From positions 6,618,342-6,682,341 of the forward strand of contig NC_049995.1 in the NCBI RefSeq assembly GCF_000003815.2: a stretch of DNA of 64,000 nt, written 5' to 3'. Of the stretch, positions 14,598 to 57,158 are shown piece by piece. The notes under the pieces are model-generated. The model had not been told where the DNA came from and ran no database searches. It worked only from the letters and a program-made list of their open reading frames with translations. The DNA comes from Branchiostoma floridae. Taxonomy: Eukaryota > Chordata > Leptocardii > Amphioxiformes > Branchiostomatidae. How positions within the stretch are numbered: position 1 is the stretch's first letter; each line of letters starts with the position of its first letter. The position numbers were made by a program, and so were the translations under genes.

Positions 14598-17500
14598 ATG
14601 TTCTATGCCCATTTCATCTTGAGCAAGAAGGGCCCCCTGGCCAAGGTGTGGCTCGCTGCTCACTGGGACAAGAAGCTGACCAAGCAGCATGTGTTCGAGA
14701 CCAGCATTGAAGGCAGTGTGGAGAGCATTCTTCATCCAAAGGTACTGTGCATTACAAATTTATTTATTGATGAGGGAAGAGTGTTTTTGCCAGGCCTTTA
14801 CAGCTGTGATTTGGCCCCTAGAATGTAATTCAGGCACCTATGCTGTGTTTCAACCAGAGAAAGGTGCCTTTTTGTTTTGTAACAAAGGTAAAAAAAAAAG
14901 TTGTCTTTCTCACTTTTTTCAAAGTTTCTGTCAGTATGTTTGGCCCGCAAAATGCAGGAATTACTAGGGTTACAGATTTTAAAAAAACTTAGGGGGAGGA
15001 TTCCCCCAGACCCCCTACAATTCTAACTCCTGTATGATGTATCGCGCACTTCTTTACCTTTGCTGTACAGGGTTCTAGTGAGGATTTTATTTTAGCGTAG
15101 TGGGAATGGCATGGTAGCAAAGCGACTAATCAGGAGATTGGTGTGGAAGGGGGGGTCTTGGTCCTTCCACAGTGAGATTTGAAGATGTAGAGTTAAAAGT
15201 TAGGATCTTGGGGTCAGTTTTGAGTGGCATATCATCATTTTTCATTGTTCAGACATTTATCAGTCATTGTTGAACAAGCAAATGACAGCAAAGCACCACT
15301 ACACTAGTTAAAAAGTAGCGTAGTGGCCCTTATTTTAGCGTAGGGGTCACAAATTTTAGCGTAGTGGCCCACTACGCTAAAATGCAGTAGCTAGAACCCT
15401 GCTGTAGTTAGATGCTTCTATGCTGTGAAAAAATCCAGGTGAGAACAATAACCGGTTGAAGGGGAATATGCCAGTCAAGGCCTGATCGACTGATCCGAGA
15501 TTCCAACAAGGATATAATGTATCTTTTCAGGTGAAGATGGCTTTACGAACATCAGGCCATCTCCTGCTGGGTGTCGTGCGCATCCACAACCGCAAGGCGA
15601 AGTACCTTCTGGCCGACTGCAACGAGGCCTTCGTCAAGATTAAGATGGCGTTCCGGCCTGGCGTTGTGGACCTCCCAGAGGAAAACCGAGAAGCAGCGGT
15701 GGCGACCATCACCCTTCCCGAGGTGTTCCACGACTTTGACACCACAGTTCCTGACTTGAAGTGAGTTATAAAGATTGTAATATTCTCTTTGTCTTTATGT
15801 ACCCAGGTTTTCTGTTAGATGTATCTGGGTGTGTCTGTTCTTGTGTGTTCGTACTTATTTGAATACGCCATCAGTAGAGTGGAAGGAATTGTCATCGCAA
15901 AGGTCAGACTTGCATTTGTAACAGGTAGTATTTAGTTTAGATGTGTGAAACTTGCAAGGAACTTAACAGTATGTTAGCAATCAGTATGTGGCACTCATAT
16001 ATCATTAGGACCTATTTGCTCTACATTATTATGAGAAATGATTACTAATTAGATCATACAAGCATTTTTTCAATATCATATCTTGCACTTTAGTCGAGGT
16101 ATTCATGTAGTTTTCATTGCTAGCTCAAAACTGCAATGTAATAAAAGTACAGTGAACAATATTGGCTTCTTTTAGACATGATATGATACATTATGTGTTC
16201 TAACTGTTTTGTGTTTCCTGCTGCAGTGACTTTGACATGCAGGCGTTCACCATGAACCAGAGCCGTGTGGAGGAGATCACCATGAGAGAGGATGTGGGGA
16301 ACATCAACATGATGGAGACAGACGCCTTCGGTGAGGGGAATTTTTGAGCTAGATGTTTACCAGGGCTCAAAGTTAGATGCCTTCAGTGAGAGAGATTTGT
16401 TAGCTTAAGGTGTAGCCAAATTTGTAACCGATAGGAAGAAATATCAGCTCTTTCAAAATACTGAATGGTTTTCTCTGGCTGTTAAATGTGATGCAACATG
16501 TGTTTGTATCAATGTATCCGTATTGTCTTTTATCATGATTTAAATCGTCCTTTATCTAAACATGTCACATTCTTGTGAGTAATTCAATACTAATTAAAAT
16601 GTACTGTAAATCGCAGTGCATAAGATGCAAATGCACTTCAAAATACTAGCAACTGATTTTAGTAAAACCTTTTTGTTTGCTCATGTTAAAACGAATGATT
16701 TGAAAGATTTTTTGTGATCATGTATGGTTATAGTCTTGTGGTACATTTAGACTCATTTTGAGGACAATAAAACTAACAAAATCATATCCAGTTGCTTGAG
16801 TAAATGCTTTTTAACTAACAGATACATTATTTTGACCTCAGGTGATCTTCCTTTCGACGACAAGGAAATGTTGCGAGATGCCAGCAACATGGACGAGACC
16901 CTGTACAACACGGCTGACGCCAGCAACCTGCTGCTGGACAGCGATCACAACAAGAAGGACGAGACGGTAGAGAAGCGCCACCCCGAGCTCAGATATGACG
17001 ATCCCATCAAGGATGACTTTGGTGGAGCTCCCGGAGACGGTATCCTCGGTAAGTACTGTAAATTATTAAATATTTGTATTCTTGGTGAGTACATATAGAA
17101 TACAACTTGGGGTGTTCCGTATCGCCCGAGGTACGGCCTGACCTATTTGTATTATACCCTGTAAGTAACTTTTTTTTCTACAAAAAAATTGCAAGGGGAA
17201 GCATTGCAATTGAGCACAGCCACCAAGTGGGAGACATAAGGTTCTCCCTACCATGGTGTGAAGTTTTTGATAAATAAATAAAAATAGCGGATTCTATGGC
17301 TTCCTATGGGCCAAAAATACAATCAGACAGATTACAGTTGAAGACTGTGGCCATATGTGCTCCCTGGTCAATCAGAATTTTATGCTTGCCATAGGATCTG
17401 CTTCCCAGTGTAAATAGATAAATAACATTGTTCAAAATTCCCTACAATATTCTGTGTTCTGGTACAGGTGCTGACTTCCTGGGTGCTACAGCTGGGGACT

Positions 17501-20500
17501 TGTTCGGAGAGGCTCCTGGTGCGACTGGTGACATCTCCATCGGACCTGAGATAGCAGCAACACCCATCCCTGAACAGGCCAATGGTAAGCCTAGGAAAAA
17601 ATTGTTGTGTCCTGTTTCCCTCCCTACCCTAGAAAAACCTGCCAACCCTAGACTTTTTGGGGGGATGGGAAGTGTTGTCACATAGTATGCAAAGCTGGTG
17701 TGTTGTACCCGCTAGGAAATATCAGCTATGTCACTAAAACGTACATTCGTAGCTGATATTGAAAATTGATTGGCCAATACAGTGATGAAAAACACATACA
17801 AATGTTCGATCTGTTTCAAACATTTGTGAAATAGCAGATGACTATAAATGTGCATTTTGCAACTATTTATAAATCATTGACAAGAACTGAAAGATCTGTG
17901 ATAACTGGTTTGATTACAGACAAGGAGCGTGCAGGTCCTAGCGGTGAGTTACAGCCAGACCAGAACGCCACAGCTGTCGCCGATCAAACAACCCTGGTAC
18001 CAAACGAACGAGAGGCGTTCGCGTTAGAGCCACTAGAAGTCACAGGTAAGTTTTATTTTGTTCTGAGCAGTTTTATATTCCTGTGTTTTTAGTATTGTCA
18101 TACCTTGATTTAGCCCCAGTAGGATTAAATATTTCAAGGTTTCAATACGACATTTACCACAAAGAAATACATTGTTGTATTTGACACTACATAAAATTAT
18201 ACAGATTTACTTGGTAATACAAATGTTCTACTGGATTTTTCCAATAAGGCTTACCAAAATGAGTTGTTTTCATTTGCTTAGGCTTTCTGTTTTTTCCTGT
18301 TTTATGTTGGTTTTATTTCGTTATTGTTGAATGCATGAGGAAGTTATTCGTTTCCGTTTTTGTTCAGGTCCTGCGCCAGCCGTGGCAGGTAAAGGATGGT
18401 TTTTCGGACACACTAACCGTAGAGTTTTCACTAGAGTGTGTGCAGTGCCTCTGTTTTTTGACAACTTCTTACACAAGTGTGGTTTTTCTTAGATATAGAG
18501 ACTAAGACTGTGTTTTCTAAAAGAAAAGATTGAAGTTTTGCAGTGCCTGTCACTAATTCTGCTCACTTCTTTTCAGATTTAGGTTGTTTTCTTATTCCTA
18601 GCCATGTTGTGGTGTCTATCCTACTTAAGCTTGAGTTTTCTCCTCTGACTGAGTGTGCATGTGTCTGATTTTTCCAGTCAGGTTGCAAGCAGTCAAGATG
18701 ATGTATCTTGATAAAGAACGTGATAGAGATATGCCAAAAAGCAGTTACACGGGCAACTGGATATGATTTTGGAAATGAGGATGTAGGAGATGAGTATTAT
18801 CGGGCCGATTTACGTATAGATTCGTGTCCCATCCTACGCGCAAAGGCTAGGCAGGCACAGTGTATAGGAACACCGTGTTAGTCTTGGGAACCCGGTGCAT
18901 CATTTCCTTGTCAATCCCAGGGGGAAGGTTTGACCAGGTCGGCGGTCAGGCTAGTCTTTCTATTTTTTTTGTTCTGTTTTTCAATTTTTTTGAAAAATTT
19001 TTTTATTTTTATATTTAAATAAAATTTTATAATATATAATATAAATATAAATTTTTTTTAAATAATAAATATTTTAATATAATTATTAATTATTATTAAA
19101 AATATTTTTTAATAATATATAAATATTATTTTTTATTATAATTTAAATAATAATTTATATAAAAATATAAATTAATATAAATTAATTAAATAATAATTAA
19201 AAATTAATATAAATTAAATTTAATAAAATATAAATTAATTTCAAAATAATAAAAAATTATTTTAATAAAAAATTTTTTTTTTATTATTTTAAAGCTAGTT
19301 ATTTTCTTAATTTTTTATATTTTAATACGGTTGTCTTAAATCTAGCCACAAAGAATAACTGGGGCCCCTAAGAGATTTCCAAAATCATATCCAGTTGCTT
19401 GAGTAACTGCTTTTTGGCGTATCTTATTACCAGGATGTCTCACCCTCATTGACGTATCTTGATAGAGATAGCAGGTTCAATGCTGACTACGAGTCTTGAC
19501 TTGTTAAAACAGGTGTGAAAGAGACCAGAGTGCGTAAGAAGCGGAAGCTGATCGTGGACCCGGTGATCGAGCTCGCCAGCTCAGAGATCCGCGCCCAGCT
19601 GGAGGACACCTCGGACATTGTGACGACCCTTGACCTGGCCCCGCCCACCAAGAAGCTGATGCAATGGAAGGAGATGGGAGGAGTGGACAAGCTGTTCACC
19701 ATGCCGTGCAGGGCTGTAGGGGCCAAAGTCTTGTTAGCTGTAAGTTGGGGTCCTTCTCTTAGTTTGAACAAGACAGTTAACAAGATATCGTCTTTGCAAT
19801 TAGAATAGAAAGGGTGAACAGAAGCTAGAAATTCATTAAGAATGTATATTTTGGTGCTATCCTGCTCTCAAAGAGTGGACAAACTGTTCACCATGCCGTG
19901 CAGGGCTGTAGGGGCCAAAGTCTTGTTAGCTGTAAGTTTGGGATCCTTCTTTAAACAAGACAACATTGAGAGAATTGACAGTGCTTACCACTCCATTCAA
20001 CTACAGTGGACAAAACTGCATCTTTGCCAAAGTCTTGTTAGCTGTAAGTTTGGGTCACAATTCTAAACCAGCGTCCAGCCAGGCTGTATGTGGAAACAAT
20101 CCCATGACTTTTTTCTTTACGTCTTGTCTTACTTTTCGTTCCCGTCTGGGTTGAAAACTTGATGCAGACCTAAACAAGACAGCTGTAGGGGTCAAAGTCT
20201 TGTTAGCTGTAAGGTAGGGTCCTTCTTAAAACATGACATTTGACCTTGCAACTAAAAATGAAATTTGTCATCTAGTGATGATGAAGAGAAGCTAAAAAGT
20301 CATGAAAATTTTATATTTTGAGCTATCCTCCTCTCGAAACGATAAAATACATAACACATTAGAAGATGTTTGTTGAAGGAAAATTTTGTTAAGTGCTTTC
20401 CCTCTGTCTTCAGATTTTCCACAGAAATTTGACGACTGTCATCCCAGAGGACCTGAGAGAAGAGAAAGGATCGACAGTCGATGATGAAGAGAGAATGGAG

Positions 20501-23500
20501 ACTGAGTCCACAGAGATGGGAAGAGATGACATATATGGTGAGTTCTTTTTGTTAGTTTAACCATTTCAATTATGAACAAAATATCTCAGTTAAAAAAAGA
20601 TTTAAGATTGCTTTATCTGAATCATTGATACATCCTCAAAAATTTTAATTCATAGATTTTGTTAGTCTTTTGTTAGACTGTACTCCATCACCACAGAAAA
20701 CGGTCATTAACAGTAGACAAGGGCACTTTGTGTGTATGGTAGGTTGACTAAATTTTAAGTTCCTTTTCATTCATAAATCTTTGTAAGAGTTCTTCTTTCT
20801 TTGGATTTTTTTGGAAATGTTGGTCATTCCCTAACATGTTTTTTTCTGTGACCAATGTTGGAAGCAAGCAAAATTGCAAAATGACATTAAAAATTAAAAA
20901 AAAAAGCACTTTATGTTGAGGTGTTTTTTTTTGCTTTACTAAAAATTCCCTTTTATCCATAAATCTTTGTAAGCATTCATTCTTCCTTTTGTACTTTTTG
21001 GAAATGTTACTCATTCCCAAACATGTTGTTTTCAGTGACTGATGCTCAATACAAGCAAAGTTACCAGTGAAAGGGTATGTCACACCGTAAGGGGTGGTAT
21101 AACCTTGTCGTGTGTAAGCACGTCGAGCGATCATGTTGACAATGCAAGTAAATGTCTGATTCCTTTCCAGACGATGGCCCAATGTCATTCGGCGGTCCCG
21201 CGTCAGTGTCCAGCCTGGGCAGTGTTCCGGAGCCGCTGCCCATGGGAGACGATGATGATGATGATGACCTGCCTCCCAAGTCGGTGGAACCGCCGGAGGT
21301 GCCCGAGAGAAGGCCCTCGCCCGCACCGGAAGAACAGGTAGGAAAAATATCCGGAAACACAAACACACAGACAGACACTCCAAAATCTAGGCAAAGATTG
21401 TGGATAGATTTTTGTCAAGTTGTATTGCTGCATATTTTGTCATTTATGAAATGAAATACAATACACTACAAGTACCTACAGTTAGGGATTTTTTATTTGA
21501 AAGGTCATTTTGTTTTAGCTCAATTTTTGTTGTGCAAGTCTTGAGTCTTGGCCTTATTTGTTAAAATGGCAAAATAAAGACATTCCAACCTTCTGTGAAA
21601 GACATACTTAAAAAAAACACATTTGTTTAACAATTTATTTGACATCAAACATGTTAAATTGTTGAATTTTTCATTTGCAAGTGAACATATTAGATATTTT
21701 GTTTCAGAATTTTTCTAGTGCAAGATATCTTGCACTTAGTTTTTGTTTTTATTCTTATATACACCTTGGAGTTTACATGTAGACAATGTGTTTTCCATGC
21801 TTCTGATTCTGAATATGATTTTACACGTGCTTACGTTATTTCATGCTTTCTGTCTGTCTGCTTATGATTTTGTATGCTCTATGTCCCCAGGCTGTTGTTA
21901 GTAAGAACAGTAGGGCCTCTCCATCAAAGCGCAAGGTAGACAGTGGCTTTGTGTTGGGTGGTTTGCTGTGTGTGAAAAATAACATTAATTTAGTGTAGTA
22001 TAGGCATCCCTAGCCTGCTAAAGGGTAGTAATCTGGATTGTTTGAAACTACAAGAATGGCATGTGAAACTTTTGAATGATAAATGGTTTACTTTAATCTT
22101 ATTTCTGTAATCTAACAAAGTCTTAAAAAAGACTCAGAATGGCAGAGGTACTAGTACTAGTAATAACTAGTATACTAAAATGTGTCATATAATGGCACAA
22201 ACGGTGATCAGTAAGGCTTTGAAAGCATGTGGACAGCATGTTGGACAAACTTTAAAAAAAATCCAGTTGCTCAAGTTATTTGGATTCTTGGGATTGGACT
22301 TCAAACTAACTTATTCATTTGGTGCATCAGTTATCTTTCCCGTTGCTATTTTTGGTGTTCAAGATTTGTAAGAAAAATTGTAATGTTGTCTCATACCTTA
22401 TATAGTAAAAGCACCTTGCTATTGAAAAGATGTAAATTTTGATCCCTTACTTTCTCTTTTAGTAGTATATGTCCATAGAATGCTTGCTGTGTGTTGCTTT
22501 TGTTGTCAAGATTCTTCCATGGTTTTACAGATCTTTTGAGATTTGGAATTATTTTTGCTTGATTCCTGTCAAACTGCACTACGTGTTAACAGGGCAAGCT
22601 ATAAAGAATGTCTATATTTGCATCTACTGTGAATGTGAGTGTGTTGACTAAGACTTCCCTCCCTGTCTGTGTTTCAGAACCAGCTGGGTGGAGTAGAAGA
22701 CTTGTTTGGCGGGGCAGCAGACAGTCCTGCTGTGGACCTTCCCCCAATGTCACCTGTCAAGACACCATCATCATCACCCAGAAAGGTAAACTATTTCATC
22801 TTTCTGCTTACTTACAGCTGTAGAAATTCTTACTCTTCAGTGAGCAGTGGAGAAGAAGAATCCATTGTGACCCGTGATGCCATCACTGTTGTCCATGTTG
22901 AAGGTCTAGAAGCCACTGAGGTCTTCCAGGGTTCTAGCTAGCGCAAAGTTGCGTAGCGGCCCGCTACGTTAAAATTTTGGACCGCTACGCTCATTTTGGG
23001 GCCGCTACGCTTATTTTCAATACAAAGTAGCGGCATTTTGACTGTATTTATTTGTGCAATAATGCCAGATAAAATGTAAAAAAACGTTGGTTTCAGTTGT
23101 TTCAGAGGGAATCGCAATGAGCAAAACACAAATACATGTGACGGCGCTGCCTGGCGTGACTTATCAGGTCCCATGTGCACAGAGCGCACGGCCGAGGCGG
23201 GTCTTCATGTTGCCCTCCCATATGTGGCAAGCCCAGAGCCATATTTGGGCTAGACTGGCTTATTACGACTTGCCGAGGGAGTGTCCTTGTATGACAATCT
23301 TTTTCGTGGAACTTGAACAACTACAACTACAAATACGTTTCCTCCACGTCCTCAACGCTTTTTCCTCGTAACTTGCGCGCCTAACCTCACTAAACTGCAT
23401 TAATAATTTTTAAGGATAGAAAAAATAATAATCAGACACTTGTCCCTCATACACTTGGCACGTCCCGATCAGGCCGTGGGAGGCTGTTGAAAAAGTTCGT

Positions 23501-30354: not shown

Positions 30355-31192
30355 AAATACGCCCGAGAATTGGTTCGTAGATCTAGAAGGACGTCATGTA
30401 ACTGACGACGTTTTTGTTTCTTGGAGTGTCGTCCGGCATAGTCCTGTCGTCCGCATCTTCTGGCGGGCATTCACCTGTTTTTACCAACAAACCGACGCCA
30501 TTTTAGAACTTCACAGGACGTGACCGTACAAAAGCGCTCTCTTGCGAGATATAGTAAAACTGCATCAGTATACACTGGAGGAAGACGGCCAGGAAACCAG
30601 TGTTCTGTATATTCTTCTCCCCTTCGCCTTTCCTTTCTTTCTTACTTACGGTACAACTTTACTCCTCCCTTCCATTTTCTTCTTTCTTGCTTGCTGCTGC
30701 CTTAAATTGGTACTTTTTTTTTTTAAGTTCTAACAGAAAGCACCAAGGAGGTTGAAAGGACTGAAAGCACTAACGTTTAATATGACCCACTATCTCGAGC
30801 ACGACTTCTCCGAATATCAAAGAAGCTTATTGTAAAGGAACGAAAACAATTAAACTATAGACATAAGAATGGAAAGAGGAGGGGCACATAAACAAGAAGA
30901 CATACCAAAATACCAGAATTATCTCACGTTGGTTCCTAGAAATGTAAAGAATATCAGATCCAGATGCTACGGAGGAGCGCAGCCTCGTTTTGGTGCACCG
31001 CCAGACGAAAGTCAACACTGCCACGTCGACGTCGCAGACTCCGAAACTAGCCGCTCGTAGAAAATCAAACTGGACCCGCTAGATTCACGGTGAGTTTAAT
31101 CATATACAACGTAGTTTGACTTTTGGACAGCTGATGCAATGTCGGACTTTGTCTGAAACTTGTGTGCTCAAAATATGATGAAGTATTCAGCT

Positions 31193-34955: not shown

Positions 34956-37900
34956 ATGTCGCTAGCTTTCGTTGGAGCCGGGAAGATGGCCCAGGCCATG
35001 GCGAAGGGTTTCCTGGCGGCAGGTAAGGCCTTTCCCCCCGCCGACACGTGGCCCGAGCGCCGGTGATGCTTTGTACCGGTCCGGCTAGCGGGATCATTGA
35101 TAAATGTGCCTTAAATTGTTTAAGTCGTATATTTCTCTTCGTATTTTGGTAGAAATAAGGTATTATTCGTTTTCTTTGTTTATTTTTCACCCGTCTGAAG
35201 TCTGGCGGATGGCGGTTTACACATAGACAGCTGATGCAATACCGGTTACGGGACAAACCGTTATATATACGACGTCGTTACCGTTCATCATGACGTGCAC
35301 GCTGTGGCTTTTATATTTCTTACGGCAAAACAAAATGATGATTGATTGATTGATTGATAGCGCAAAATATCAATTTTCATCAAATTGCTGCTGCACTAGA
35401 TAATCTTTTAACTGAGCTTAAATGAATGCACATTGACAAAAATGAATGGATTTACACTGGCTTTGAATTGAAGAAGGGAAAATTCCATAATATTTATAAG
35501 CCTTTTAATAGATTCGTATAGAAATTACATGAATACTTTTACATAATTTCTTTCCGTTAAGGTGTATTGAAAGTGAATTATTTGAAAGCAAGGCAATCTT
35601 TGGGGTGTCCAATTTTTAAGGAGAATTTTGCTGAAATTGAAAAAATATATATATATTATCGGCCACAGGAAGATATAGATTTCCACCTGATTGTTTCTTG
35701 TCTTGGAAGTTGAAGAAAAATAATAATTTGGAACTTGGAACAAAGAAAATCACACATGTTCATCCAACAGGGTAAAAGACGGTGAAATTCTAAGTTTTAA
35801 CATATCTTTTTTCTGTTTTGTCCATCAGGAGTGGTAAAAGCAGATCACATCACAGCTACAGCGCCCTCATGTAGAAGTCAACCCACGCTAGAGGTAGGTC
35901 ATTGTTGCAATAACAACCCTCGATTGATAATCTCTTCACTCTATTAAGATTTTGATTGTGTAAAGTGGCTACTTGAACTTGGAGGGGCAATGAGCACTTT
36001 TAATTTATGGTAGTCAGTGACTCACTGTAATACATGTACCTGTTTGATGATGTGTATTTTGGGTCGTTGAGGATCCATTTTATTGCTGTCTCTTGTTTTT
36101 ATGCTGGAGATTTTCATATCAACTACAATTGTGCATATGGTTATAATAGGATCAATGTTTTCAGCTTGAATAGATTGTAAAAACCTCCCCTCCATTTTTG
36201 GATCAGTTCAAAAATGTGATGTACATGTACAGTACCTGTTGTTACCTGGATGATACCATTTCCACGCGGGGTGATTGGGATATTTTACATACTTTTTAAG
36301 TGTGACTTCATACATTCTAAAAGTTCCTTTATATTTTAAGTAGATGAGACTTTTCTCTTTTGTGCAGAAATTTACGATGCAGTAACAGTAGTATTGTCAC
36401 GCACAGTACTACGAAAAAGCAATCCAAAAATTTCCAGCAGAATATCTGATTATAGATAAATCACTACTCGCAACTTTGCAAGCTAAGACAAATACAGGCT
36501 AAATTTATTTAGCTGAGTACAAAGTTTCGAGCCCTGGCCTAGCTATGTTTCTGACGCAATCATACAGGATACGTTTGGTTTAGGTCAGAGGTATGTTGCC
36601 ATATGCAATAGTGTAATGTACACACAAATAACAGCGCTGTATATCCGGCTTAATGATTGGACAAAATGGGGGTGTCAAATCACAAAAGGCCCAAGCACGT
36701 AATGGTTTATTATAATTTTATATTTATATCAATGCCATCTTTTACAATAGAGATTTTAATTTTTCATTACACTGCAAGGTTTGATATGCCCAGTTGCCCT
36801 GCACAACCATACATTGTTTGGCACAAGTTAGTTTCAAACTCAAGTAACGCAGCATGCTAGCTTATTTCGGGGCATAGACTGCAAGTGTCATGCAAGCGTT
36901 GTGTGTACCAAGCCTCAAAATGAATGAATGCCAATTCAGGGCTCAATATAACTTATAATAAGAAGGGGATATTGAGCTATCATACTGATTATAGTGACTT
37001 TCAAATTGAAGATTGTTCCTTTTCTGTTTTCTTCCATGATTTCATCAAATTTGTCCTTAAGTATTATGAACATGGTCAATTGTTCTCTTATTAAAACCGT
37101 ATAATAACACTTTAACAGTTATGTAGATCTTTGGACAACATCCTAAGTTTGATGTACTCATCCCTTAAATATGTGCCTTCAGTGGAAGCAATTTTAAGAC
37201 TGGCGCATAGTGGAATTTTCCACTGGTACCTTTCAGGTGGTCCGTTCGCAGGTAGATCAAAGCAGGTGTGAGAGTCCTTGACCAGTTGACAGACATGTCT
37301 GCAAGCCATGCCACGAGGCAGTGTTCTCCATTGTCCTCTTGTCCATAGCAATTAAGCCAAAAGGTAGTTATACAGATAACGGCCATTTTTCTAATGCCTT
37401 GTTGAGCTAAGAGGATGAAAGATGCGCTGCAACTATAGTAGACATGGATACCAGTCTGTATTGTAGTATATACTGTATGCATATTATTATAATGTTCTGG
37501 GTATGGCTACTATAGAAAAGGGGATTATACACAGACAAAAGTAATTCTGAGCGCCAACAGTTACAAGTACAGCACTAATAAAATGAACATAGTTCCGAAC
37601 TTTGATCTCAGACGACACAAAACCAAGAAAATTAGAAAGTCCTTGACTACACAAGTAGCTAAGCTACACTTAACCAAAGTAACTAGTGTAGTTTACGACC
37701 AAAACGAGGTTGGTTTAGTGAGACGAGTCTTAATTTTCAACGACAGAAAAGTGAGCATTGTCCGCAGACAAAGAGCTAAAGGTTTAAGTCAGATAAACAC
37801 AGTTTTAAGGACATAGAACAAGTAGGTCATTTTATCATCTGAAATAACGGGTGTCCCAAATTGAGGTCATTAGACAGCTGGGGTAGCTGTCTATGGAGTG

Positions 37901-40250
37901 TACTACACTATTTCAAAAAGGCGGTGTCGGATTTCAATGCTGCAGTACAGGAAAATACTGCCAGGAGGCCCAACATGGCAATGTTTCCCTGTAGCTAGCC
38001 ACACACTAAGATCACACAGTTCAATCAATAATGTATCTTGAGTTATACATGTAGTTGCAAATGCACAAACGCAACTAAAAAACAGTGCCTCCGTTGTAGG
38101 CAAGCCTCCTTCCCAGTAACAGTAACAGAGATTTATTGAAATGGGTCATTTTTGTGTGTGTAATGTTTTGACAAATTGTTTGAATAGAAATTATTTCCTT
38201 CATTCCAGGATATCGGTTGTCAATTCACACACAACAACAAGGAAGCAGTAGAGAATAGCGACATCATCTTCCTATCGGTGAAACCACACATTCTACCAGG
38301 GGTGCTACAAGAGATCGCTCCTGTGGTCACCAAGAGACACCTCATGGTTTCTGTTGCAGCAGGTGTCCCACTGCAGTTCCTAGAAGAGGTAAGAAAACAC
38401 TGGTGTGAGGCCTAACAAACTTGATTTAATGGGAGATGATTTTGGCATGTTTTCGAGTTAAGATAATGTGATGGACTATGATACAGCTGGAGAAAGCTGT
38501 CGTGTTTGAATCAAGAACTTTTCTTGATAGCATTAGTAGCTTCTAGGGTTTGCAAGGGTGGTGTTTTGTACATGACTGAAGATAGTGTGTTCAAGAAGAA
38601 GTGCAAATTGACTTTAAGAAATATAGCAATTAGTGTCTACTTATTGCTTATCAATTTTGCTTTTTTTGTGCCAAAAAAATACTTTTATTGCCACCAGCCT
38701 TGTCAAAGAAAGGTGCTCAAAGCATGAAGCAGTTTGGAAACCACATTCAGCGATCCAAAACCCTCCCATAATTACAACATATTTCTAGCCTGGATACGGG
38801 CTACCATTGATGTAAATTACGTCATTAGGAAATGATGTCATGTGAACAGAAAGATTTCACCAATATCATCACTTAGTCTCGCCAGCGATTTTTTATGCAT
38901 TCAGTTGATACACACAGATATTGACGTTGAGTGTTGAAGACTCGAATGCTGTTGCTTAGCAACAGATAATCGTACCCTGTTATTTTTACAAATTGGCTGC
39001 TATGTTTACTGTAACATGCGTGATGTTCAACAGTTGGATTATCAGAGACTTGGAGACCTGTAAGCTGTCATGATGCTAGTATATACATGTTGCAGTAAAT
39101 GTTTGGTTGTGAAAATGAGGAAAATCTCAGAATGATGAAGAAAATGACATAAAAAAAAGACAGTAGTACTATAGTTACCGGAAAGGAAAAAAATCAACAT
39201 ACTGTGAAGTGTGAAATATTTACTTAGTGGTTTTATTCTAGTGGTTTACACCAAGCTTTCAATATCAACATGTGGTCAGTTCTACATACTGTATCATTCC
39301 AATTGTGGGCAACAAAAATCATGGTGGCACAACCTGGCTTTTGACTTAGGTTGCTGCCTATGCAACCTGGCTGAAAAAAGGATTTCGAGCTCAACTTTTA
39401 CTGTGCAAACTTTACAATTACAGTCCAACCAACGTGTTTAGTATCCAGAAGGTCATTGAACAGCCATTTTCTTCCCGTTTTCCAGAAACTTCCCCATAGG
39501 TCTTCAACACTGAAAACCCTTTATTGTGCAAACTTTACCATCACAGTTCAACCAATGTGTGTAGTATCCTGGCAGGTCATTAAAACAACCCTTTTCTTCC
39601 CGTTTTCCAGAAACTTCCCCCTAAGTCTTCAACACTCAATACCTTTTGTTGTGCAAACTTTACCACAGTCTACCAGTCTCACCATTTAAACAACCGTTTT
39701 TTTCCCGTTTTCCAGAAACTTCCCCCGAAGAGCCGTGTGATGAGAGTAATGCCGAACACCCCCTGCGTGGTCCGACAGGGCGCGTCCGTCTACGTTCCCG
39801 GTAGCCACGTGGAGAAGGAAGACTCGGAGATCATCAAGTCGCTCCTCTCGAGTCTGGGGTACTGCAGCGAGAGTAACGAGGGGATGATATCCGCTGTTAC
39901 CGGTCTGGCCGGCAGTGGGCCTGCGTATGTAAGTATACTGTAAATGCATTTAAGTTTGTAGGGAGTTGATTTCATGGTAGCGGGAAAAAGGGACTGTTTG
40001 CGGTGGTGTTAATTTCGTGGTAGCACCATGCACTGTGGTCTCTTACTGCCATGGATAAATGTTCGCGGTGGTTTTAAGTTCGCGGTGAAGTAGCCACTGC
40101 GAACATAAAACCATCGCGAACATTTCTGCATTTATAGTACCTGCTAAATCGCCGGGATTCATTGATTGCTGACTTCTGTGGCCGTGAAATTGATTGATTA
40201 CTCTAAGTGAACTTGAAAACGTGAAAATTTTTGGGAATCATGAAAACGCA

Positions 40251-40297
<47 letters not shown>

Positions 40298-43200
40298 CTC
40301 TTTCTTTCTTTCTCTCTTTCTTTCTCTCTCTGAGTCTCTCTTTCTTTCGACACAGCTATTGGTTTTGCCACCAAGGGGCACGTGGCTAGGGATGTGAGAA
40401 AGTGCAGTCAGCAAATTTTAAATATCCATCACCAGTGTTTTTTGATTACCCTTTCAGTTTGAGAAGACCAACGGCCTTCAGACCCTTTTCCGGCCTGTAA
40501 TAAGAAAAAAATGCAATAAGAAAACCGTAACGTAAAAAAACTATATCCAGTTGTAAAATGCAACCAATGCGACAAAACAGACACCCTAGTTACCAAACAG
40601 CCAATTAGATTTAGCCTTGGCCCTTTAAAAAAAGTTAAACGTGTGTTTCTAAACCCATTCCCTACTTGTTCACTGTCTCTTTAACTGTGTTTATTTGATT
40701 CAACCTTTAGTCCATTGTTTTCTGACAATGCCCCCTTTTCTTTCCTTAAAAATTAATACTACAAATGTACACCCAACAAGGTCGTAACATCCTTGGTTTT
40801 TGTAGATGCCGAAGGACGTAAGGCAAACAATGCAACCGTTGTTCCACCGTTGTTTGTCTTACACAAACATCCTTACCTTATAAGTTGAATACTGTTCCAT
40901 TTTTTTCTTCCCTTTCACTCTCTGCCACCCTTCAGTTTTCTGGATCAACTTAAATTTTAAAAGTAGTCACCCTGGGCTCTAGACTCTACATATAGTGTTC
41001 TAAACTACTTGTATCACTACAATTATCACTTTTCTTATCAATAAAGAATTTTAAGTTATCACTCTTCACATTTCATTTGCAAAAACAGCAGAATACTTAT
41101 ATTTGTCCATTCACGGGTGTTGAGTTTACTAAAAGTGGTCAGTTGCACAGCCATGGCAGAGGCGACGGCAGCAAATTTCTTTTGTGGGGGCAAAATATTG
41201 GTGATAGATTTGTGAGCATGTTGTCCGGTGTTCTGCCTGGCTATGCCGAGTGGAGTTCATGTCGTGACATCACAGACCGCCTACCGTGACGACGGACCCT
41301 TTCACTAATTCTCATAAGCCATGCCCCTTCTGTAGCATTCGTTGTATACTAATGTTGAAGATATAACTTACAAGTTACATCTATTGCTTGACCTAGAATT
41401 TCAAAAGACAGAAAGGTCATTCCTTTGACAGAACGTGACCTTGAAGCTGCCATATTTATTTATTTATCCCCGTTTTCGCACAGATGATACAGAAACGTGG
41501 GTTTTGCTCGGACACCTACAAAGATCCTGTATATGTGGCCATAGGTTTAGGTGGGATGGGGCAGGCATATGTAAGTACACTATGTGGGGTGGGGGTGGTA
41601 GCGTGGTGGTCTCAATTCACAATCACATACTTGGTCTTGGGTCAAAATGTCTGTGCTGGTTATGGAAAGGCTGTTCACCTGTGCGTTTTCAGATTAACAA
41701 GTCAATGTCTTAAAACTTGTCTCGTCTTAATGTCTTAACCTTCATGTAATGTCATGTGAACCATGCAATAAAGAGGGTTGGGTGACCCTAACTGAAGACA
41801 TATAATTGTTTGTGGTGGTGACATTGAGAAAAAAACTTATCAAACTAGATCTGGAACTATATATAGGGAAGGAAATAAAGGTGGTGAGATGGAGGTGTGG
41901 TTAGGTTTGTTGGCCCAGAATCTGAAGGTTGTAAAAGAACCTACAACAGTGGACAGCTTAAAAAGGGAATAGCAGTGCTTATTTGTCGTGACTTACATAT
42001 ATCCATGAAATCTTTCCTAAAAAAATCTTTGTCCAATTTGTAGACATTTCATGTTAAAAAGAACAGGCAGGGTTTTAAAGCTTTTTTCAGTTTGGTAAAT
42101 ATCTGTTTAGTTCACCAGTTGTTAGTTTTTCTGCTTTGGCTGACCGACTGTGCCCTCATGGAACAAAATGTCCTAATCTTGAACCAGATCCACGGTGTGT
42201 AATGTATAGTACATACTTCCCGTGCCCATTTGACTCCCTTAGCCGGCTACACTCCTTGGCCAGCTTTGATACTATCTTATGGCACCGTAGGATCTGCTTT
42301 GAGATTAAAAATGTTCCACATAACTGCCCCAACCAGTTGTAACTGCCCACTGCCCTGCCCCCTTTATTGACCAATCAGCATCAGTGTCTCTCAAAAGGGC
42401 GGGAATGGGATATCCCCAAGAAAGAATGAGGTCACGCACAGGGCACAGTTCAAAAGTTTAACTCCTTGTACGAGGGTAAAAGGCAAGCAACAGCCTTTCT
42501 TTTTACTGAAAACTCGGATTTTGAGGGAAAATCACATGTAGATATGGTGTACATGTAGGTTATTTGGCTTGTATGTTTGAGCGCATGCTCTGCTTTGTAG
42601 TCATTGAAGTTGAAAGAAAGAAAACATTGTTATGTAATGGAGGTAACACAGACACATTGATTGTTTTCTGTCAGTTTCATGGTGTTTGATAAAACTAATT
42701 TACATCAGTCGCTCCGACGGTTACATGTAGGTTAATGGCTGTTACAAAGTGTATCTATTGTTTTTTTTGGACATGATGAAATGACCATAACATGGCAAAA
42801 AGGGACAGGCACCACACCCTATCTGGGTTATGGCTGGATCTCCCCTTTGGGCAGATGTTACCATACATCACAGAATAGAGGGGTGTCCTGAAGTGGAGAA
42901 CAGGGATAAATATTGGTACAAACTGGTTCGGACTGGTTTGCCCCCCTCCCTTCTCAAAAGAAAGAAAACTTTGTAATCTTTCCCAATCAAGAAGGTATTC
43001 AACTGTAATGTTTCATTTGAATAAAGCTTATTCTCAAAACCAGTCGAAACGAACAACAGTTAAACTAAAGTCCTTAACATTAATTAAGTGCAAATCCGAC
43101 CAGCTGTCGAATTTTGGTTTGCTGTTATACATTCATGTTCCATTTAGTGTCTTTTTTTTGTCACAAGCTGAAGACGCCCACAAAATTTGAGAAAGTTATG

Positions 43201-44699
43201 AAATCATGTAGAGCTTTCTAAATGACCAAAATTGTAAAGAAACACCTGCAGTCTGAAATCCTAAGATATGAATCATAAATATGAGAACCCAACCAAGAGA
43301 GAGAAATGAACAAAATTCTGCTGGATCAGCCCGTGTTTACACAATGACAATCTCTCGTTAATGTGGTGGCAACTCGCTAGGAGCGCGATTTTAGTCAGGC
43401 TACGTGATCAGTAGTCGCACACGCAACCTCTAACTTTCAGGGGCTGGTGTGCCCCCCTCCCCCTCGACAGGAACACAATTTCAGCCAGGCCACTGCATGA
43501 CTGACATATGGTTGCAAGATTGCTTATGGCCACCACAAGTCAAACATGGTACATTAACAGTTACATAAGGCTGTATTTTAACCAGTATTTCTGTCTCATT
43601 TCAGGCCTTCACAGCCATCGATGCCTTAGCGGACGGAGGGGTGAAGATGGGGTTGCCACGGGAACTGTCCATCAAGCTGGCGGCCCAAACATTACTGGTA
43701 TGTAGGAAGCCTCTACGAACACTGCTCACTTAGAGCTCAGAATGTCAGTGGCCATTTTTCACAGTATGGTAGGAAGCCTCTACGAACATGGAATATTGGT
43801 TGCCATTTTTCATAGGGAACATGTTGTAGTTGATTTCAATAGGATGCCATAACAGCACCACATGGAAAAGAATACATGAATGAGATGTACAAAAATGTTT
43901 TTTGTCTTCATTTGTGTTTTCAAACTTATAATGTTATCTGTTCTATATAAGCCAACCTCTCAGAAAAGTTTGATTGGAAAACTACAGTCCAGTCTAGAAT
44001 TACTGGTATGTAGAAAGCCTCTACCAACACTGCTCACTTAGAACGTGGAATGTTGAGTACCATTTTTTATAGGGAACATGTTATAGTTAAGTTTTAGAGT
44101 AATTGGTTGAAAAAACATACTCTAATGTACTGTGGTATAAACTCTTTTTTTCTGTTGGAACAATGTTTCAGAATGTGTTTTGTCTTACATTTGTGTTTTC
44201 AAACTTTTAAGTGTTAACTCATCTGCATTATGATCCAGCCTTCCAGAAAAGTGCGATTGGGGAGTTATATTATAATCTAGAATTTGAGTTTGAGAAAAAG
44301 AGAAATTTTGACATTTTGACTCCTTTAAACCAACAACCCGCCACGGTATTCTCTGAAAATGATTTCTCTTGGATTCAGAGAAAACGCTAAATGCAAAATA
44401 GTACCACTATGAATTGTAAAAATTTCCCCTTAACCTCACAATAATGATAAGTATCATTGATAGTCATATGAACATATCAATTTTAAAAGTCTTTGTTCTT
44501 TTTCTTGCAGGGAGCATCCAAGATGGTGCTAGAAACAGGGAAACACCCCATGCAGTTGAAGGACGATGTCTGCTCCCCCGGCGGGACCACGATATACGCC
44601 ATCCACAAGCTCGAGTCCGGCGGTTTCCGCAACTTGCTCATCGACGCGGTGGAAGGGGCGTGCCTTCGTGCAGAAGCCATCGCCAAGAAGGCAAAATAA
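34956..44699 (+). CDS. PYCR3: Pyrroline-5-carboxylate reductase, PYCR3-like
   Basis: Exons 34956-35022, 35829-35893, 38209-38388, 39716-39928, 43605-43697 and 44511-44699, all in phase; 268 residues (human PYCR3 274). It reduces pyrroline-5-carboxylate to proline with NAD(P)H, the last step of proline synthesis. Start at 34956 gives [20 protein letters not shown], like PYCR1; an in-frame ATG at 34920 would add 12 residues. The Rossmann nucleotide site is [26 protein letters not shown] and [11 protein letters not shown] are conserved, as is the C-terminal family signature [20 protein letters not shown]. The tail ([14 protein letters not shown]) and the lack of the PYCR1/2 extension favour PYCR3, a cytosolic form in vertebrates. 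Introns 4 and 5 and the exon 4 acceptor carry junction duplications, and intron 4 has a cryptic exon. Confidence 0.93.
39401..39725 (+). repeat. Three-copy minisatellite spanning the PYCR exon 4 acceptor
   Basis: Units of about 105-125 bp, each with tgtgcaaactttac..., then tcccgttttccagaaacttc and ccc. Acceptors end at 39485, 39610 and the true one at 39715, each followed by the first 10 exon bases. Use of the first acceptor keeps the correct frame but meets a stop near 39689, so upstream acceptors yield truncated products. Confidence 0.9.
39934..40145. mobile_element. Small MITE just inside PYCR intron 4
   Basis: Imperfect inverted ends (tactgtaaatgcatttaag / catttctgcatttatagta) and a palindromic middle rich in gttcgcggt / accatcgcgaac words. 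It starts about 5 bp after the exon 4 donor. Related to the element at 7085. Confidence 0.6.
40255..40348. repeat. (CT)n / (CTTT)n microsatellite
   Basis: Pure ct tract followed by ctttctttct and gagtct interruptions, in PYCR intron 4. Confidence 0.9.
41484..41570 (+). CDS. Cryptic or cassette exon in PYCR intron 4 (exon 4b)
   Basis: An 87-nt open segment, phase 0 at both ends, bounded by a good acceptor (gttttcgcacag) and donor (gtaagt). It encodes [20 protein letters not shown] then GLGGMGQAY. This aligns with the end of exon 4 ([24 protein letters not shown]). The Thr of VTGL is replaced by Ile and the second Ser-Gly is changed, so an active enzyme from substitution is doubtful. It is either a spliced cassette adding 29 residues or a decayed exon duplicate. 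Not counted in the main protein. Confidence 0.5.
42174..42307. mobile_element. MITE, AAGCAGATC family, 134 bp, in PYCR intron 4
   Basis: Ends taatcttgaaccagatccac and gtaggatctgctttgagatta (last 20 match the family); flanks aaaatgtcc / aaaatgttc form a near-perfect 9-bp target duplication. Inner block ggccagctttgatactatct is shared with the other copies. Confidence 0.8.
43690..44290 (+). repeat. Tandem duplication spanning the PYCR exon 5 donor
   Basis: The true junction attactg|gtatgtaggaagcct (gt at 43698) recurs as attactg|gtatgtagaaagcct (gt at 44006) with the following intron (ctctac.aacactgctcactt, catagggaacatgtt). A third, more diverged stretch ends at tctagaattt near 44280. Unit about 300 bp. 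Confidence 0.85.
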
Positions 44700-51263: not shown

Positions 51264-54200
51264 TCAGTCGGAGGGGTCCCGACAGTGAGAACAGTCGCGC
51301 ATTTCCTCCTGGAACAGCTCGATCTGAATCGTCGAGGAGTGCACGACGAATCTGCTGCGCACCAAACGGGAGGCTATGTCCAGCACCTCTTGGGGGTCCG
51401 CGTCGACGTCTGGATGAGATATATCGTAATAATAGAAGTTGGTAATTTTCAAGCAGATATCATAGTAGGAAATGAAAAAAACTCAACATTTTCCCGGTGA
51501 AATTTTGCTGTTTTCCTCTCAGTGATATAGGAAACGCTAATTCACAAAAATACATATCTTGTACCTTAACGCTTTTTTGGAAAATGGTTAAGAATAGCCT
51601 GATTAAATCTGGCTTATAGCAGCCCGACAAACATCCGCCGGCCCCATACCGGGGAGGGGCCAGTTACAGCCCTGGACAGCGGAGTTTGTGTTACACAGAC
51701 TAGGTTAAGAAAAGTGGAATTCTAACTGAAGGTGGTGAAGTTTACCGAACGTACGCGTGTTGCGAAGAGGCCGTCTTTTTACTCGGGTAATGTTGCTTGA
51801 AAAAAAAAAGTATTTTGAATTCTTAAGATTGAATTTGATTTGTGGATTCAATCGCTATCCTTTGATTTTGGTTTTTGGTTTAATTCGGATCTCCATTAGT
51901 GACTAGACTGGTATATCACTATTCCTCCAGGTGAAGGATAAAATCACCGTGTGGCTGATACTAGACGGAGCGGCACTGCACCATTGGCGTTGCCAAAACC
52001 TAGCGCACTTACCGACGGCGATGTGGACGGCCAGCGCGTTCTTGCCGACCGTCAGAGACCAGATGTGCAGCCCGTGGACGGCGTGTACTCCCGGGATCGC
52101 CTTCAGACTCTCCTTCACGGAGTTAAAATCCAACCCACGAGGGGTGCCTGCAAACAGACAAAAGATAGCAAGTAGAAGTGGGTACGATTTCAGTACAAAA
52201 TTTACGTTACTCGTACAAAACCGTTTTTTCCTGTTGAATCGGTCCAGAAAAACCGGACCAAAAAAATTAGTGGACCGTGTTTTGGACCGATTCGAAAATT
52301 GATACATTATACCGGCAGGTGTTCATGTGTTTGGGGGCTTACCGGCCCAAGAAAATAACAGAGTTGTTTTGAGTATCGCTCTTTCACAAGTTTTCAAATA
52401 CAGGTCTAGGTTTATGTCCAGATCTGGACCTGGACTGGATATATATAAATACGTATACCTGAATTTTCTGTACCGGTACATGATTGTATTGAATCACTCG
52501 TGGATGAAACAACATGAGCTTCAACACGGTCTTAGAAAATGAAGTTTTAAAAACAACTCGCAAAAATGCCAAAGTTTTAGCAAGGATTCACTAAAATGCA
52601 AATAGGGACACCAAGATGGCGCCGGACACAACTATGACGTCACGTCATGACGTACCTTCCATGAGCACGTTGACGGTGTCCCGCAGGATGCTGAGGGTGG
52701 TGATCAGCACCAGCACAGAGAACATGAAGGTGCAGATGGGGTCTGCTATGGCCCAGTCAGGCTAGGGAGTATAAACATGGTAAATTGGCAATTCTCAAAC
52801 TTACAATTTGGTAATAATGTGTTCGAACAACAGACTTTAAAAAATATTCAGAGGTGTAGACAAGTAAGGAATTGCACTGATTTATACCTGTCTGAACTAG
52901 CGAAAGGCATGCCAAGCTTGAGCCCTCCTTCTATTTTTTTTAAACCCCTGTTATGAACTTTATTAAGAGTAGCAGGAAACCAGCATTGAAGCTCGTGTGA
53001 ATCAAACATAGATCTAGCAAATCTAAGACAAAGTAAACTCCCTTCTAGCTTTCAGAGCTTTTAGTACAGAGGTTTAACATAGACATCAATTAGTGCTGCC
53101 AACTATTCACGAACCCACAGCACAAAACCGCAAGGCTTAAAGGTCCTGTGTCTCTAGTCTCAAAGCAGACCCAACGGTGCCTTAGAGATAGTATCAAAGC
53201 TGGCAAAGGAGTATAGCCGGCCAAAGGGAGATAGCCGGCTAAGGGAGTCAAACGGGCACCTGGTGCCGCTATACTAAGTCCCTGGCCAGCTTTGATACTA
53301 TTTCTAAGGCACCGTAGGGTCTGCTTGGAGACTACTGTGTCTCTTGGTTAACCCCACGGTTACACCGTAATCACTTACCCTGAAGTAAATGATGATAGCG
53401 GCGACCAGCACCCCCAGGCTCTGTACGAAATCCCCGACCACGTGGATGAACGCCGCCCGGACGTTCACGTTTTCTTTCCGGTTCTGCTCGCCTCCGTCCT
53501 CCCCCTTCTCCAGTAACTCCGCCTGCGGATCTCCCATCTGGTAACCCTGACTCTCGATATCAGTCCTCACGATTCCTTCCTCACACGACCTAATGCCGCC
53601 GTAATTATGAGGAATGCCGTTACTTTGGCAGCTTTTTGTCAACTTCTGACTCTCGTCGCATTGCTCGTTAGTACATGGACCGTCCGGTGTGTGACCTTTC
53701 CCAGATTGGTCCTGACCTTCGTGACCTGTTGGCATTTGACCCCCATTGCTCTGACCGTGACCTGTTGACACTTGACCCCCATTGATGTGACCGTGACCTG
53801 TTGACACTTGACCCCCATTGATGTGACCGTGACCTGTTGACATTTGGCCCCCATTGCTCTGACCGTGACCTGTTGACACTTGACCCCCATGGCTGTGACC
53901 GTGACCTGTTGGTATTTGACCCCCATTGCTGTGACTGTGATCCGTTGACATTTGACCTCCGTGGCTGTGTCCGTGACCTGTTGACGTTTGACCTCCGTGG
54001 CTGTGCCCGTGACCTTTGTCCCCGTGACCTTTACCCCCGTGGCTGTGTCCATGTCCGCTGAACCCGTGACTGTGACCGTGACCCCACTGATGGAGGATGA
54101 AACCCATTCTGTAGTGGACGAACAAAATGCTATTTAGCATCAACAACCTTAATATCAATATATTTTCAGATGCGTGCAGTAATATTATATGTACTCTAAA

Positions 54201-57105
54201 AAGCTATAACAAAAGTATTTTTGTGATCAGTTTCTTGACTCCCGTAAAGCATACAAAGTCAATCGGCATCGTTCATATTTCGTGGTGCGAAAAGCTTCAT
54301 GGAGGTAGTGATTCAGGCCAAAGGGTGATCGGAAGTCTAAACCGAGACGGGTGTTGCTACAGGCTCCCCTCGTCTTTGACTTCTGACGAACGACTATCTT
54401 TTGCAAAACTTTTGGCAAACATGATTTGTTCACCATTCTATAGATATGATAAAATTTAAACTACGTGTAGTGTATCCTTACGCCGATGAAGATTAAACAT
54501 CCAGGTAATAAGATACGCCAAATAGCAATTACTCAAGCAACAGGAAATGGCTTTGGAAACGGAGTCAGAGCATTTCAGGCAGAATCCACTACCTTTTGTC
54601 TACTGTCACTAACAAAAGCCGTATCCAGTTGCTTGAGTAACTGCTATGGCGTACGTGTACCTTTAGGCCTTCTCTATAATATCGTTGAAGAGGTTCATCA
54701 GTCACGTATGCAAACAGTTACAACAATTTTCATCAATCAATGACTGTTTTTTGTAAAGGAACAGTACATACCTCCCAAATTTTCGATGTCTACCAGTACA
54801 TCATCGTCAGGGGAATGACCTAGTCTCATTCTCGCGAGAGAACACGAGAGAACACTTCTCTATAATAATCTTCAAGCAGATTCCCGGTGGCATAAGCTGG
54901 CAAAGGAGGTCATCCACCTCCCGGTGCCCGTATGACTCACTTAGGCCGGCTATACTCATTGGCCAGCTTTGACACTGTCTTATGACACCGGAGGATCTGC
55001 TTGGAGATTACTCTAGTCTAGAAGAGCAATAATTTTTGGAAGCTCTTACACCAAATTGACAGCCACCCCACAGGAAGCTGTGATGAGCATGATCTTGGCG
55101 TCGATGTCCATGTCTCTGTGGATGACCCTCATCACGGCGTTATACACCAGGATCCCGGTCACCACCCAGATCAACAACACGGACACCAGGGCACCCATCA
55201 CCTCTGCAGCAGGCAAACATAAACATAAACAATAGAATATATGTGTATCAACAAGAACTGACGTCAACAATAGCGTAACATCATTTCCGCAACAGGTAAA
55301 CAACACACTGGCCAAAGTGATCTTGGACTTTATGTCAAGGGATCAAAGAAGCCTTTACAGCCATCCATAAACATAAACGGTGGGCGCCATAGCTTTCCTG
55401 CAACTTATGATCCACTGCTCTCCGAGTCACGTGTGCTATTTACATAGCGTGACATCACAGCAGCAGTGGATTGTTCATTCCTTACCAAGTAGTAAGTCCA
55501 TTTTTTTGTGTTGGAAATTACAGTTCAACTTTTTCCAGGAGTATTCAAATGAGGATTCGGTATATGATCAGCAATGATATTACGATTTCCAAGCAGATGT
55601 GACGTGTGAACTTACCTGCTCGGTAGTAGCCGAAGTTCATACTCTTGGTGGCGGGCCTTGTCGCGACCCAGATGGCGAACAGACTGATCATGAAGCTGGC
55701 GAAGTCCGTCATCATGTGGGCGGCGTCTGTCATGATGGCCAGGCTCCCGGCAAGGTAGCCGCCTGTCAATCACACATGCAAATTAGTGATGTCACTACAT
55801 GGACGACTTTTGTCACAGTGGTCAGATCGCTGTCAATCACACATGCAAATTAATGACGTCACCACATGGACGAATTTATCACAGTAGCCATGATGGAGAT
55901 AAGACAAAGGACACACACATACATCACGTGAATTTTTGTGATACCACGTGCCCATAACGTTATCGACAATCTCGGCCACCAAGATGACGCAGAGGTTGCA
56001 CATATATATCACGTGACGTATTGTGATATCACGTGACTATCACGTGACTTGCCGACCACCTCGGCCACTATGAAGATGAGGCACAGGATGCAATCGTGAG
56101 ATGACGTGAAATCACGTGACTTAGCGATCACCAGAATACACATATATCACGTGATCTACTGTGATTTCACGTGACTATCACGTGACTTACCGATGACCTC
56201 GGCCACCATGAAGATGAGGCAGAGGATGCTGGCCATGATGAGTTTCTTCCTGGCCGTGGGATCCACGGGTCGGCTCTCCCCCGTGTCATGGCAGTGCGAC
56301 CGGTAGTTCCTACCCAGCAAGTAATGTTCCTGCGAAATGTGTTGGCAATCATCAATATGATATCTTAAACGTCTTTCTTGTGGGTTATGATTAGTTAGAA
56401 CTGTTTTTGTCAATTATAGGTGGTTAATACCCAGCAAGTACTGTTCCTGGTAAACACGTTGATAGACATCACTTTTAATCGTCAAATGTCAATCTTATGG
56501 GTTACTTAGAACTGTTTTCATCAAGTATAAACGTGGAAAGGGTCAGTATTTATGTAGATCCTGGGTACTGTTCATGGGAAATACGTTAACAGGCATCACT
56601 ATGAAACGTTAAACGTCATTTTTGTGGGCTAGTTAGAACTGTTATCATCAATTATACAAATAAAACGGGCCGGTATTTATGTAGTTCCTACCCAGAAAGT
56701 ACTGTTCCTTGGAAATGTGTTAGTAGGCGTCATTATGAGATCTTAAATGTCTTTCTTGTAGGTTAGTTAGAACTTTTTTCTTTAATTACACAAATCGAAA
56801 GGGCTTGTATCAAAATGGCAATTGTTTGATATTCACTCCTTTAGAATCAGGAAAAAAAGCCTTGATTTATGATAAATGCCGAAATTGTCCTTCGGAGTAA
56901 ACAACAATAGAATTCGTTCCTAACAGGGCCATTATCCACATTGAGGGACATGGAGTTTCATTCAAGATGCCCGCTAGTTGCCATTCTCTCCACATACCCT
57001 CCCCGCATGTATAATGGTCCGTCCCTGATACGTACCTCGTCATCATCATTAGTGGACGTGTCCGTGATGAACGGCGTGCATCCACCTGGTCTTACGTCAC
57101 CGCCC
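51264..57105 (-). CDS. SLC30A: Zinc transporter, ZnT2/3/8 subfamily (SLC30A), 5' exon not found
   Basis: Exons 57105-57036, 56329-56191, 55762-55616, 55203-55050, 54108-53379, 52761-52656, 52147-52013 and 51409-51264, in phase; about 541 residues without the start. The protein is a cation-diffusion-facilitator Zn2+/H+ antiporter that loads zinc into vesicles. Six membrane segments are visible. The transport-site motifs are HMMTD in TM2 and HVVGD in TM5. An N-terminal HCH (SHCHDTGES) occurs in ZnT3/8, and the C-terminal domain ends [15 protein letters not shown], like ZnT2 (DMKDCQACQGPSD). The donor at 55050 rather than 55052 keeps frame (NLV|MGF). The TM4-TM5 loop is extreme: about 190 residues, with eight 12-residue His repeats, against under 20 in human ZnT2. 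The first exon must end two bases into a codon and was not located up to 64000; a Penelope-like fragment sits just upstream. Confidence 0.93.
51595..51693 (+). repeat. Dispersed repeat, CTGATTAAATCT family (copy 1)
   Basis: Shares tagcctgattaaatct, cttatagcagcccg, aggggccagttacagcc and gagtttgtgtt with the copy at 61757-61850. Lies in the last intron of the zinc transporter. Confidence 0.7.
53155..53334. mobile_element. MITE, AAGCAGATC family, full-length 180-bp palindrome
   Basis: Ends tagtctcaaagcagacccaa and gtagggtctgcttggagacta (last 20 shown in part), with long internal mirror symmetry (agtatcaaagctggc / gccagctttgatact). The 9-bp ctgtgtctc flanks it exactly (53146-53154 and 53335-53343). 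Confidence 0.9.
53727..54014 (-). repeat. Coding minisatellite: eight 36-bp units in the ZnT His loop
   Basis: Each unit encodes a 12-residue repeat of the form [12 protein letters not shown]. The first four keep most His; later ones read [12 protein letters not shown] or [12 protein letters not shown], losing potential zinc ligands. On the plus strand it appears as repeated gacctgttgacatttgaccc. Confidence 0.95.
54511..54654. repeat. Palindromic copy of the dispersed repeat, with hairpin-GAAA motif
   Basis: Two arms in opposite orientation (agatacgccaaatagcaatt, actcaagcaacagg; and ccagttgcttgagtaactgc, tatggcgtac). Between them the minus strand reads aggtag-tggatt-ctgcct-gaaa, a hairpin with base changes that keep pairing relative to the 48083 copy. 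Confidence 0.65.
54866..55010. mobile_element. MITE, AAGCAGATC family, 145 bp
   Basis: Ends taatcttcaagcagattccc and ggatctgcttggagatta, inner ggccagctttgacactgtct. The flanks (tctctataa / ctctagtct) are not a clear duplication. Confidence 0.75.
55763..56190 (-). repeat. ZnT intron composed of duplicated splice junctions
   Basis: The acceptor side is duplicated: the minus-strand acceptor gtgtgattgacag occurs at 55764 and again 67 bp upstream at 55831, with the surrounding atgcaaatta.tga.gtcac block. The donor side is present three times: the exon end with its donor (56191), a copy at about 56050-56095 (donor would be gcaagt) and a more decayed one at about 55965-56000. Nine CACGTG palindromes lie in the donor-side copies. 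Confidence 0.88.
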
Positions 57106-57158
57106 CTGTAACACAAGAAACATAGTCTCAGTACACCTCCTATACTACTCATTAAGGA

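Follow-up and report, generated by a model that had tools for sequence, protein, structure and literature searches.

Gene content of the window

The DNA analysed here, hereafter the window, is a 64-kb stretch of the genome of the amphioxus Branchiostoma floridae in which four genes were modelled. The models of RAD21, PYCR and an SLC30-type zinc transporter (ZnT) are backed by Pfam matches and PDB sequence alignments, and a kelch-type gene is an ab initio model (Table 1). Together the four models supply 51 splice junctions, which form the junction sample of the window. No N-terminal exon was found for the ZnT model, and Rfam gave zero matches in the 64-kb window. The PDB sequence alignments cross the RAD21 exon-7 donor, both duplicated PYCR junctions, the ZnT donor and the second ZnT acceptor, whereas the first ZnT acceptor (56329) lies outside the aligned part and is placed by reading frame and splice signal only.

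Table 1. Modelled genes, duplicated splice junctions and comparison arrays (coordinates in the window unless a locus is named)
Feature	Position	Strand	Authentic site	Copies	Spacing (bp)	Exon copied (nt)	Scan score	Basis or remark
RAD21 gene	14598..25432	+						12 coding exons modelled; Pfam and PDB sequence alignment
RAD21 exon-7 donor array	19681..20338	+	exon end 19739 (GTAAGT)	exon ends 19931 (GTAAGT), 20043 (GTAAGT), 20208 (GTAAGG)	192/112/165	59 (first copied unit)	140
RAD21 intronic tandem duplication	20757..21062	+						wholly intronic counter-example, spans no junction
Kelch-type gene	27573-30333	-						4 exons; ab initio model
PYCR gene	34956..44699	+						6 coding exons; Pfam and PDB sequence alignment
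PYCR acceptor array	39397..39730	+	exon start 39716	39486, 39611	125/105	15	76	AG intact in both copies
PYCR donor array	43691..44284	+	exon end 43697 (GTATGT)	exon end 44005 (GTATGT)	308	7	82
ZnT gene (SLC30-type)	51264..56329	-						7 exons modelled; Pfam and PDB sequence alignment
ZnT second acceptor array	55763..55885	-	exon start 55762	55829	67 (unit)	0	82	unit stops at AG
ZnT donor array	55915..56229	-	exon end 56191 (GT)	56053 (now GC), 55964 (now AT)	138/89	39 (first copy)	134
ZnT first acceptor array	56302..56810	-	exon start 56329	56446 (AG), 56573 (now AT), 56707 (AG)	117/127/134	~27	105
Intronic array	L037:2370-3231							spans no junction

A coding exon of ZnT contains a minisatellite of about eight 36-bp units (53692-54083, minus strand), which encodes a His-rich loop and remains in frame because each unit amounts to 12 codons. 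The window has five instances of one 22-base word (16777, 18750, 19380, 27328 and 48096), spread over both strands and with at most two mismatches, where none would be expected by chance; three of the five copies lie in RAD21 introns, and the word looks like a dispersed element. A RAD21 intron also holds a 304-base block of 1% G+C (18977-19280), and between the kelch gene and PYCR lies a 71-base direct repeat (31192-31543) whose copies are 98.6% alike and 281 bases apart. A 217-codon open frame on the plus strand (57156-57809) bears what we take to be a likeness to the GIY-YIG domain of Penelope-like elements.

Tandem copies of splice junctions

Each junction was scanned for the best alignment that includes the splice point and matches sequence of the adjacent intron no more than 1.5 kb away. 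Strong copies of this kind, scoring 76-140, exist for six of the 51 junctions (three donors, three acceptors), and the remaining 45 score at most 27. A prior sequence-only reading had described such duplications in three of five genes, as six arrays that affect donors and acceptors both and have units of 67 to about 300 bp. The six arrays, the three affected genes and the unit lengths all hold, with measured copy-to-copy spacings of 67-308 bp, whereas the number of genes is corrected to the four modelled here. The further statement that the arrays copy an exon end applies well to three of them, barely to two (the PYCR arrays) and not to the sixth, the second ZnT acceptor array, which abuts its junction while the other five span theirs. 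A seventh candidate, at the RAD21 exon-3 donor (16330/16385, score 27), was dropped, as its score is equalled or exceeded at 182 of 1741 random intronic points. At the start of PYCR exon 4 (39716, plus strand), just past the duplicated acceptor, the predicted protein lacks three residues relative to PYCR1, a gap that a shifted splice site could produce.

The sequence-only reading also noted that minisatellites at amphioxus exon-intron boundaries had been named 'mirages' at Adh, and PMC3087553 and PMC3902484 bear this out. The former describes mirages in the globin genes BflGb6 and BflGb9, attributes the name to an Adh3 study (Canestro 2002) and cites further loci, with unit lengths of 10-72 bp for Adh3 and 150-160 bp, including 157, for the globins; the latter adds a mirage at PGBD5, with a citation for troponin C. 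Nine globin loci of the same genome were scanned as a positive control, and two of them have strong junction copies that recover the published periods: 157 bp at the donor of L025 (published 157), and 150 and 158 bp at the acceptor of L029 (published 150-160).

Arrays of this kind might be produced by faulty assembly, given that the window includes 1659 N bases and that, according to PMC3902484, PGBD5 copy numbers differ among assemblies. The same source reports that re-sequencing data confirmed the PGBD5 sequence. Copies within the window differ by several to about 30%, more than collapse or repetition of a read would explain, and protein aligns across at least five of the six authentic junctions. 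An assembly artefact is thus scarcely credible as the source of the arrays.

Junction copies in other genes

Comparison genes were picked from the same genome (513.4 Mb in 431 contigs) by Pfam family only, with arrays disregarded, and comprise eight CCT genes (L030-L037) and four AAA genes (L038-L041). Copies are present at 2/86 CCT junctions, namely the L034 acceptor (78 bp) and the L037 donor (134 bp), and at 5/26 AAA junctions, three in L038 and two in L039. Both families together give 7 of 112 junctions (6.2%, 95% interval 2.5-12.5%) in 4 of the 12 genes, in keeping with the earlier suggestion that mirages are frequent, and the window rate of 6/51 shows no significant difference from this figure (P 0.23). 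L038 is VCP/p97, its five exons aligning to p97 without gaps over 249 residues; its acceptor at 4156 scores exactly 50, which is the cut-off.

The exon finder used for these genes was trained on those of the window, and of its 23 calls that score at least 40, 21 coincide at least in part with a modelled exon and 17 match one exactly. HMM support extends to 37 of 43 CCT exons and to 5 of 13 AAA exons, and the five L038 exons are also PDB-aligned. When the exons of L040 and L041 are joined, stops appear or no single clear frame emerges, so that certain junctions in these two genes may be incorrect; for the joined exons of L039 no frame was obtained. The exon finder puts an L039 donor at 2588, which homology would place at 2538, and the array covers both positions. 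The second L039 hit stems from a predicted ab initio exon of 129 nt that has a 77% whole-exon copy just upstream (L039:876-1172), with differences mostly at the third codon position (7, 3 and 21 at the three positions), and is possibly a true duplicated exon. In L037, an 83-base direct repeat (81%) lies on both sides of a predicted CCT exon (repeat 5975-6428, exon 6086-6265).

A sample independent of gene family was drawn as nineteen 10-kb stretches at fixed positions on contigs 1-19, which are 17-35 Mb long, contig 20 (3785 bases) being too short. These stretches, 188 kb in all, contain 33 predicted exons, with a strong copy at 2 of 64 ab initio junctions, and 35 arrays, of which 3 touch a predicted junction. 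A long minus-strand donor array at L003:6043-7455 has about a dozen units in a 620-base part of it, nearly all with CAG/GTAAGG intact, and the exon concerned is predicted ab initio only.

Fate of the copies

The copies mostly look like neutral leftovers. Authentic and copied sequence mismatch at 24/278 positions in exon parts and at 74/443 in intron parts (11 of the 12 copies), a ratio of 1.93, and an intron-to-exon divergence ratio of about 2 is expected where neutral copies are set against an authentic exon under constraint. Splice dinucleotides are intact in 9 of 12 copies (4/6 donors and 5/6 acceptors), as compared to about 10 expected, by hand calculation, at 8.6% divergence, and among these copies there is thus no conservation of splice sites beyond the neutral expectation.

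Selection for decoy sites had been raised in the sequence-only reading; the copies would then be kept to tune splicing, and some of them do retain strong signals. RAD21 copies 2 and 3 score 8.1 each as donors, equal to the authentic site, and share an identical 29-bp junction core with flanks that cannot be aligned. The PYCR donor copy equals its authentic site at 6.9, and the PYCR acceptor copies score 13.2 and 14.0 against an authentic 14.7 (in this scoring set the positions of RAD21 copy 4, of ZnT donor copy 3 and of one partial PYCR copy were a few bases out; the divergence comparison has the first two right). However, GT is gone from all the listed ZnT donor copies and AG from one acceptor copy, and both retention and divergence agree with neutral decay. 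Translation through the decoys meets a stop in 10 of 11; the PYCR acceptor decoy at 39611 would add 35 residues in frame. It is therefore improbable that selection for decoy sites maintains the copies.

A coding role for the copies was also considered and rejected. Differences by codon position stand at 46/252 for third positions versus 26/506 for first and second positions, a contrast suggestive of coding constraint on part of the copies; this count includes the L039 whole-exon copy, which drives the excess in good part, and a badly placed L039 copy. Once the whole-exon copy is taken out and shared changes are collapsed, the strong third-position signal falls to P 0.067, the exon parts of 12 arrays (two globin arrays included, L034 without a usable copy) having 34 synonymous differences and 26 that are not, where 27.7 synonymous are expected under neutrality. 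The window's four rows in this test have 3 synonymous differences and 9 that are not, which again speaks against decoys held by selection.

Arrays, junctions and chance

Random intronic points in the genes of the window score at least 76 in 49 of 1741 cases and at least 50 in 113 of 1741, corresponding to 1.4 and 3.3 among 51 junctions, in a null that includes the junction arrays themselves. When arrays rather than points are counted, five of seven intronic arrays in the window lie across a junction and a sixth abuts one, as compared to 1.1-1.7 expected (P 0.0016-0.010) if arrays of equal size are placed at random with their reach into exons limited to 60-200 nt. Because the window was singled out for the pattern, it is insufficient by itself for a general claim.

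In the 12 CCT and AAA genes, a small sample, 7 of 10 intronic arrays span a junction, where 1.3-1.8 are expected (P 0.00005-0.0004); with the window pooled in, the figure is 12/17 against 2.4-3.5. Taken alone, the AAA genes have 5/5 arrays on a junction (P 0.0001-0.0008) and the CCT genes 2/5 (P 0.10-0.15), the search having covered 500 bases past the outer exons in AAA genes and only the region between the outer exons in CCT genes. Two low-complexity arrays and the one inside the ZnT exon are excluded from the array counts, and loosening the low-complexity cut-off left the window and CCT classes unchanged.

These counts bear on a serious contender, to which we give somewhat less than even odds, namely that junctions are not preferred at all and that ordinary minisatellites are spread through both introns and intergenic DNA, those at junctions being merely noticed, or recognisable for longer as the exon is conserved. 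Arrays are common everywhere, as in the fixed-position stretches, and the CCT genes alone are not significant. Moreover, there is no point-level excess at junctions, 7/112 junctions comparing with 124/2708 intronic points (P 0.36). A preference for junctions thus survives in the array count and fails in the point comparison, a discrepancy that we think reflects a few long intronic arrays covering many points. Set against an absence of preference are the array count in the family-picked genes, the persistence of the excess among arrays at least 88% alike (5/7 on a junction, P 0.0003-0.0013), and a P of 0.002-0.009 when junction arrays are granted a twofold survival advantage, which becomes 0.05-0.13 when L038 is also left out. 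A junction bias of arrays accordingly has some support, short of proof.

Origin and significance of the arrays

The six arrays are best explained, with a probability of roughly 0.8, as amphioxus mirage minisatellites that stem from neutral local tandem duplication, are common in this genome and, counted by array, are commoner on junctions than size and intron layout predict. A short segment carrying a splice site and some intron, and in five of the six cases also some exon, would have been duplicated in tandem, probably through slippage, template switching or unequal exchange; replication slippage or template switching, as the sequence-only reading proposed, is a plausible mechanism. Intron-side copies would be tolerated if splicing keeps to the exon-adjacent site, as has been reported for other amphioxus genes, RT-PCR in PMC3087553 suggesting regular splicing despite mirages. 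From then on the surplus copies would change as non-coding DNA does, and a few no longer have an intact splice site.

The cause of the array-level excess we can only infer. It may be, although we consider it rather doubtful, that the mutation process itself targets tandem duplication to amphioxus exon-intron junctions at several times the background level of introns, in which case a sizeable share of conserved genes would carry decoy junctions and splicing would regularly have to decide between near-identical sites separated by a few hundred bases. If the rate of 7/112 holds genome-wide, amphioxus would offer many natural experiments in splice-site choice among near-identical competitors, as well as present-day cases for models of how introns slide and are gained. 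Should the junction bias hold up in a larger count, it would suggest that exon-intron boundaries have a mutational weakness that lacks an explanation.

Relation to known mirages and other tandem duplications

Tandem duplication is also the starting point of the Rogers model of intron gain, cited in PMC3087553, and the likeness to the present arrays lies in a duplication that carries splice signals, although no new intron is shown here. That source puts mirages forward as a stock from which new introns could arise, and ZnT intron 1 is largely made of junction copies, as if the arrays were relics of intron birth through tandem duplication of an AG/GT exon segment. Self-comparison, however, finds no match between the donor and acceptor arrays of ZnT intron 1, and the RAD21 and PYCR arrays occupy one intron end; a history of intron birth is very unlikely to account for them.

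As mirages, the arrays of the window have much in common with the published examples, being tandem copies of exon-intron boundaries, at donors or acceptors, of which many but not all keep GT/AG. Spacings of 67-192 bp in five arrays are in line with the published unit lengths, whereas that of the PYCR donor, 308 bp, is longer, and, unlike published mirages, the second ZnT acceptor array copies no exon. Ordinary intronic minisatellites, such as those in RAD21 and L037 (Table 1), are likewise local tandem arrays but lack a splice junction. The literature within reach, most subscription papers lying outside it, yielded no genome-wide count of mirage arrays. RAD21, PYCR and the SLC30-type zinc transporter, all genes new for mirages, join the known mirage loci, as do VCP/p97, another AAA gene and two CCT genes from the sample, and what is new here is a first small count together with a possible junction bias.
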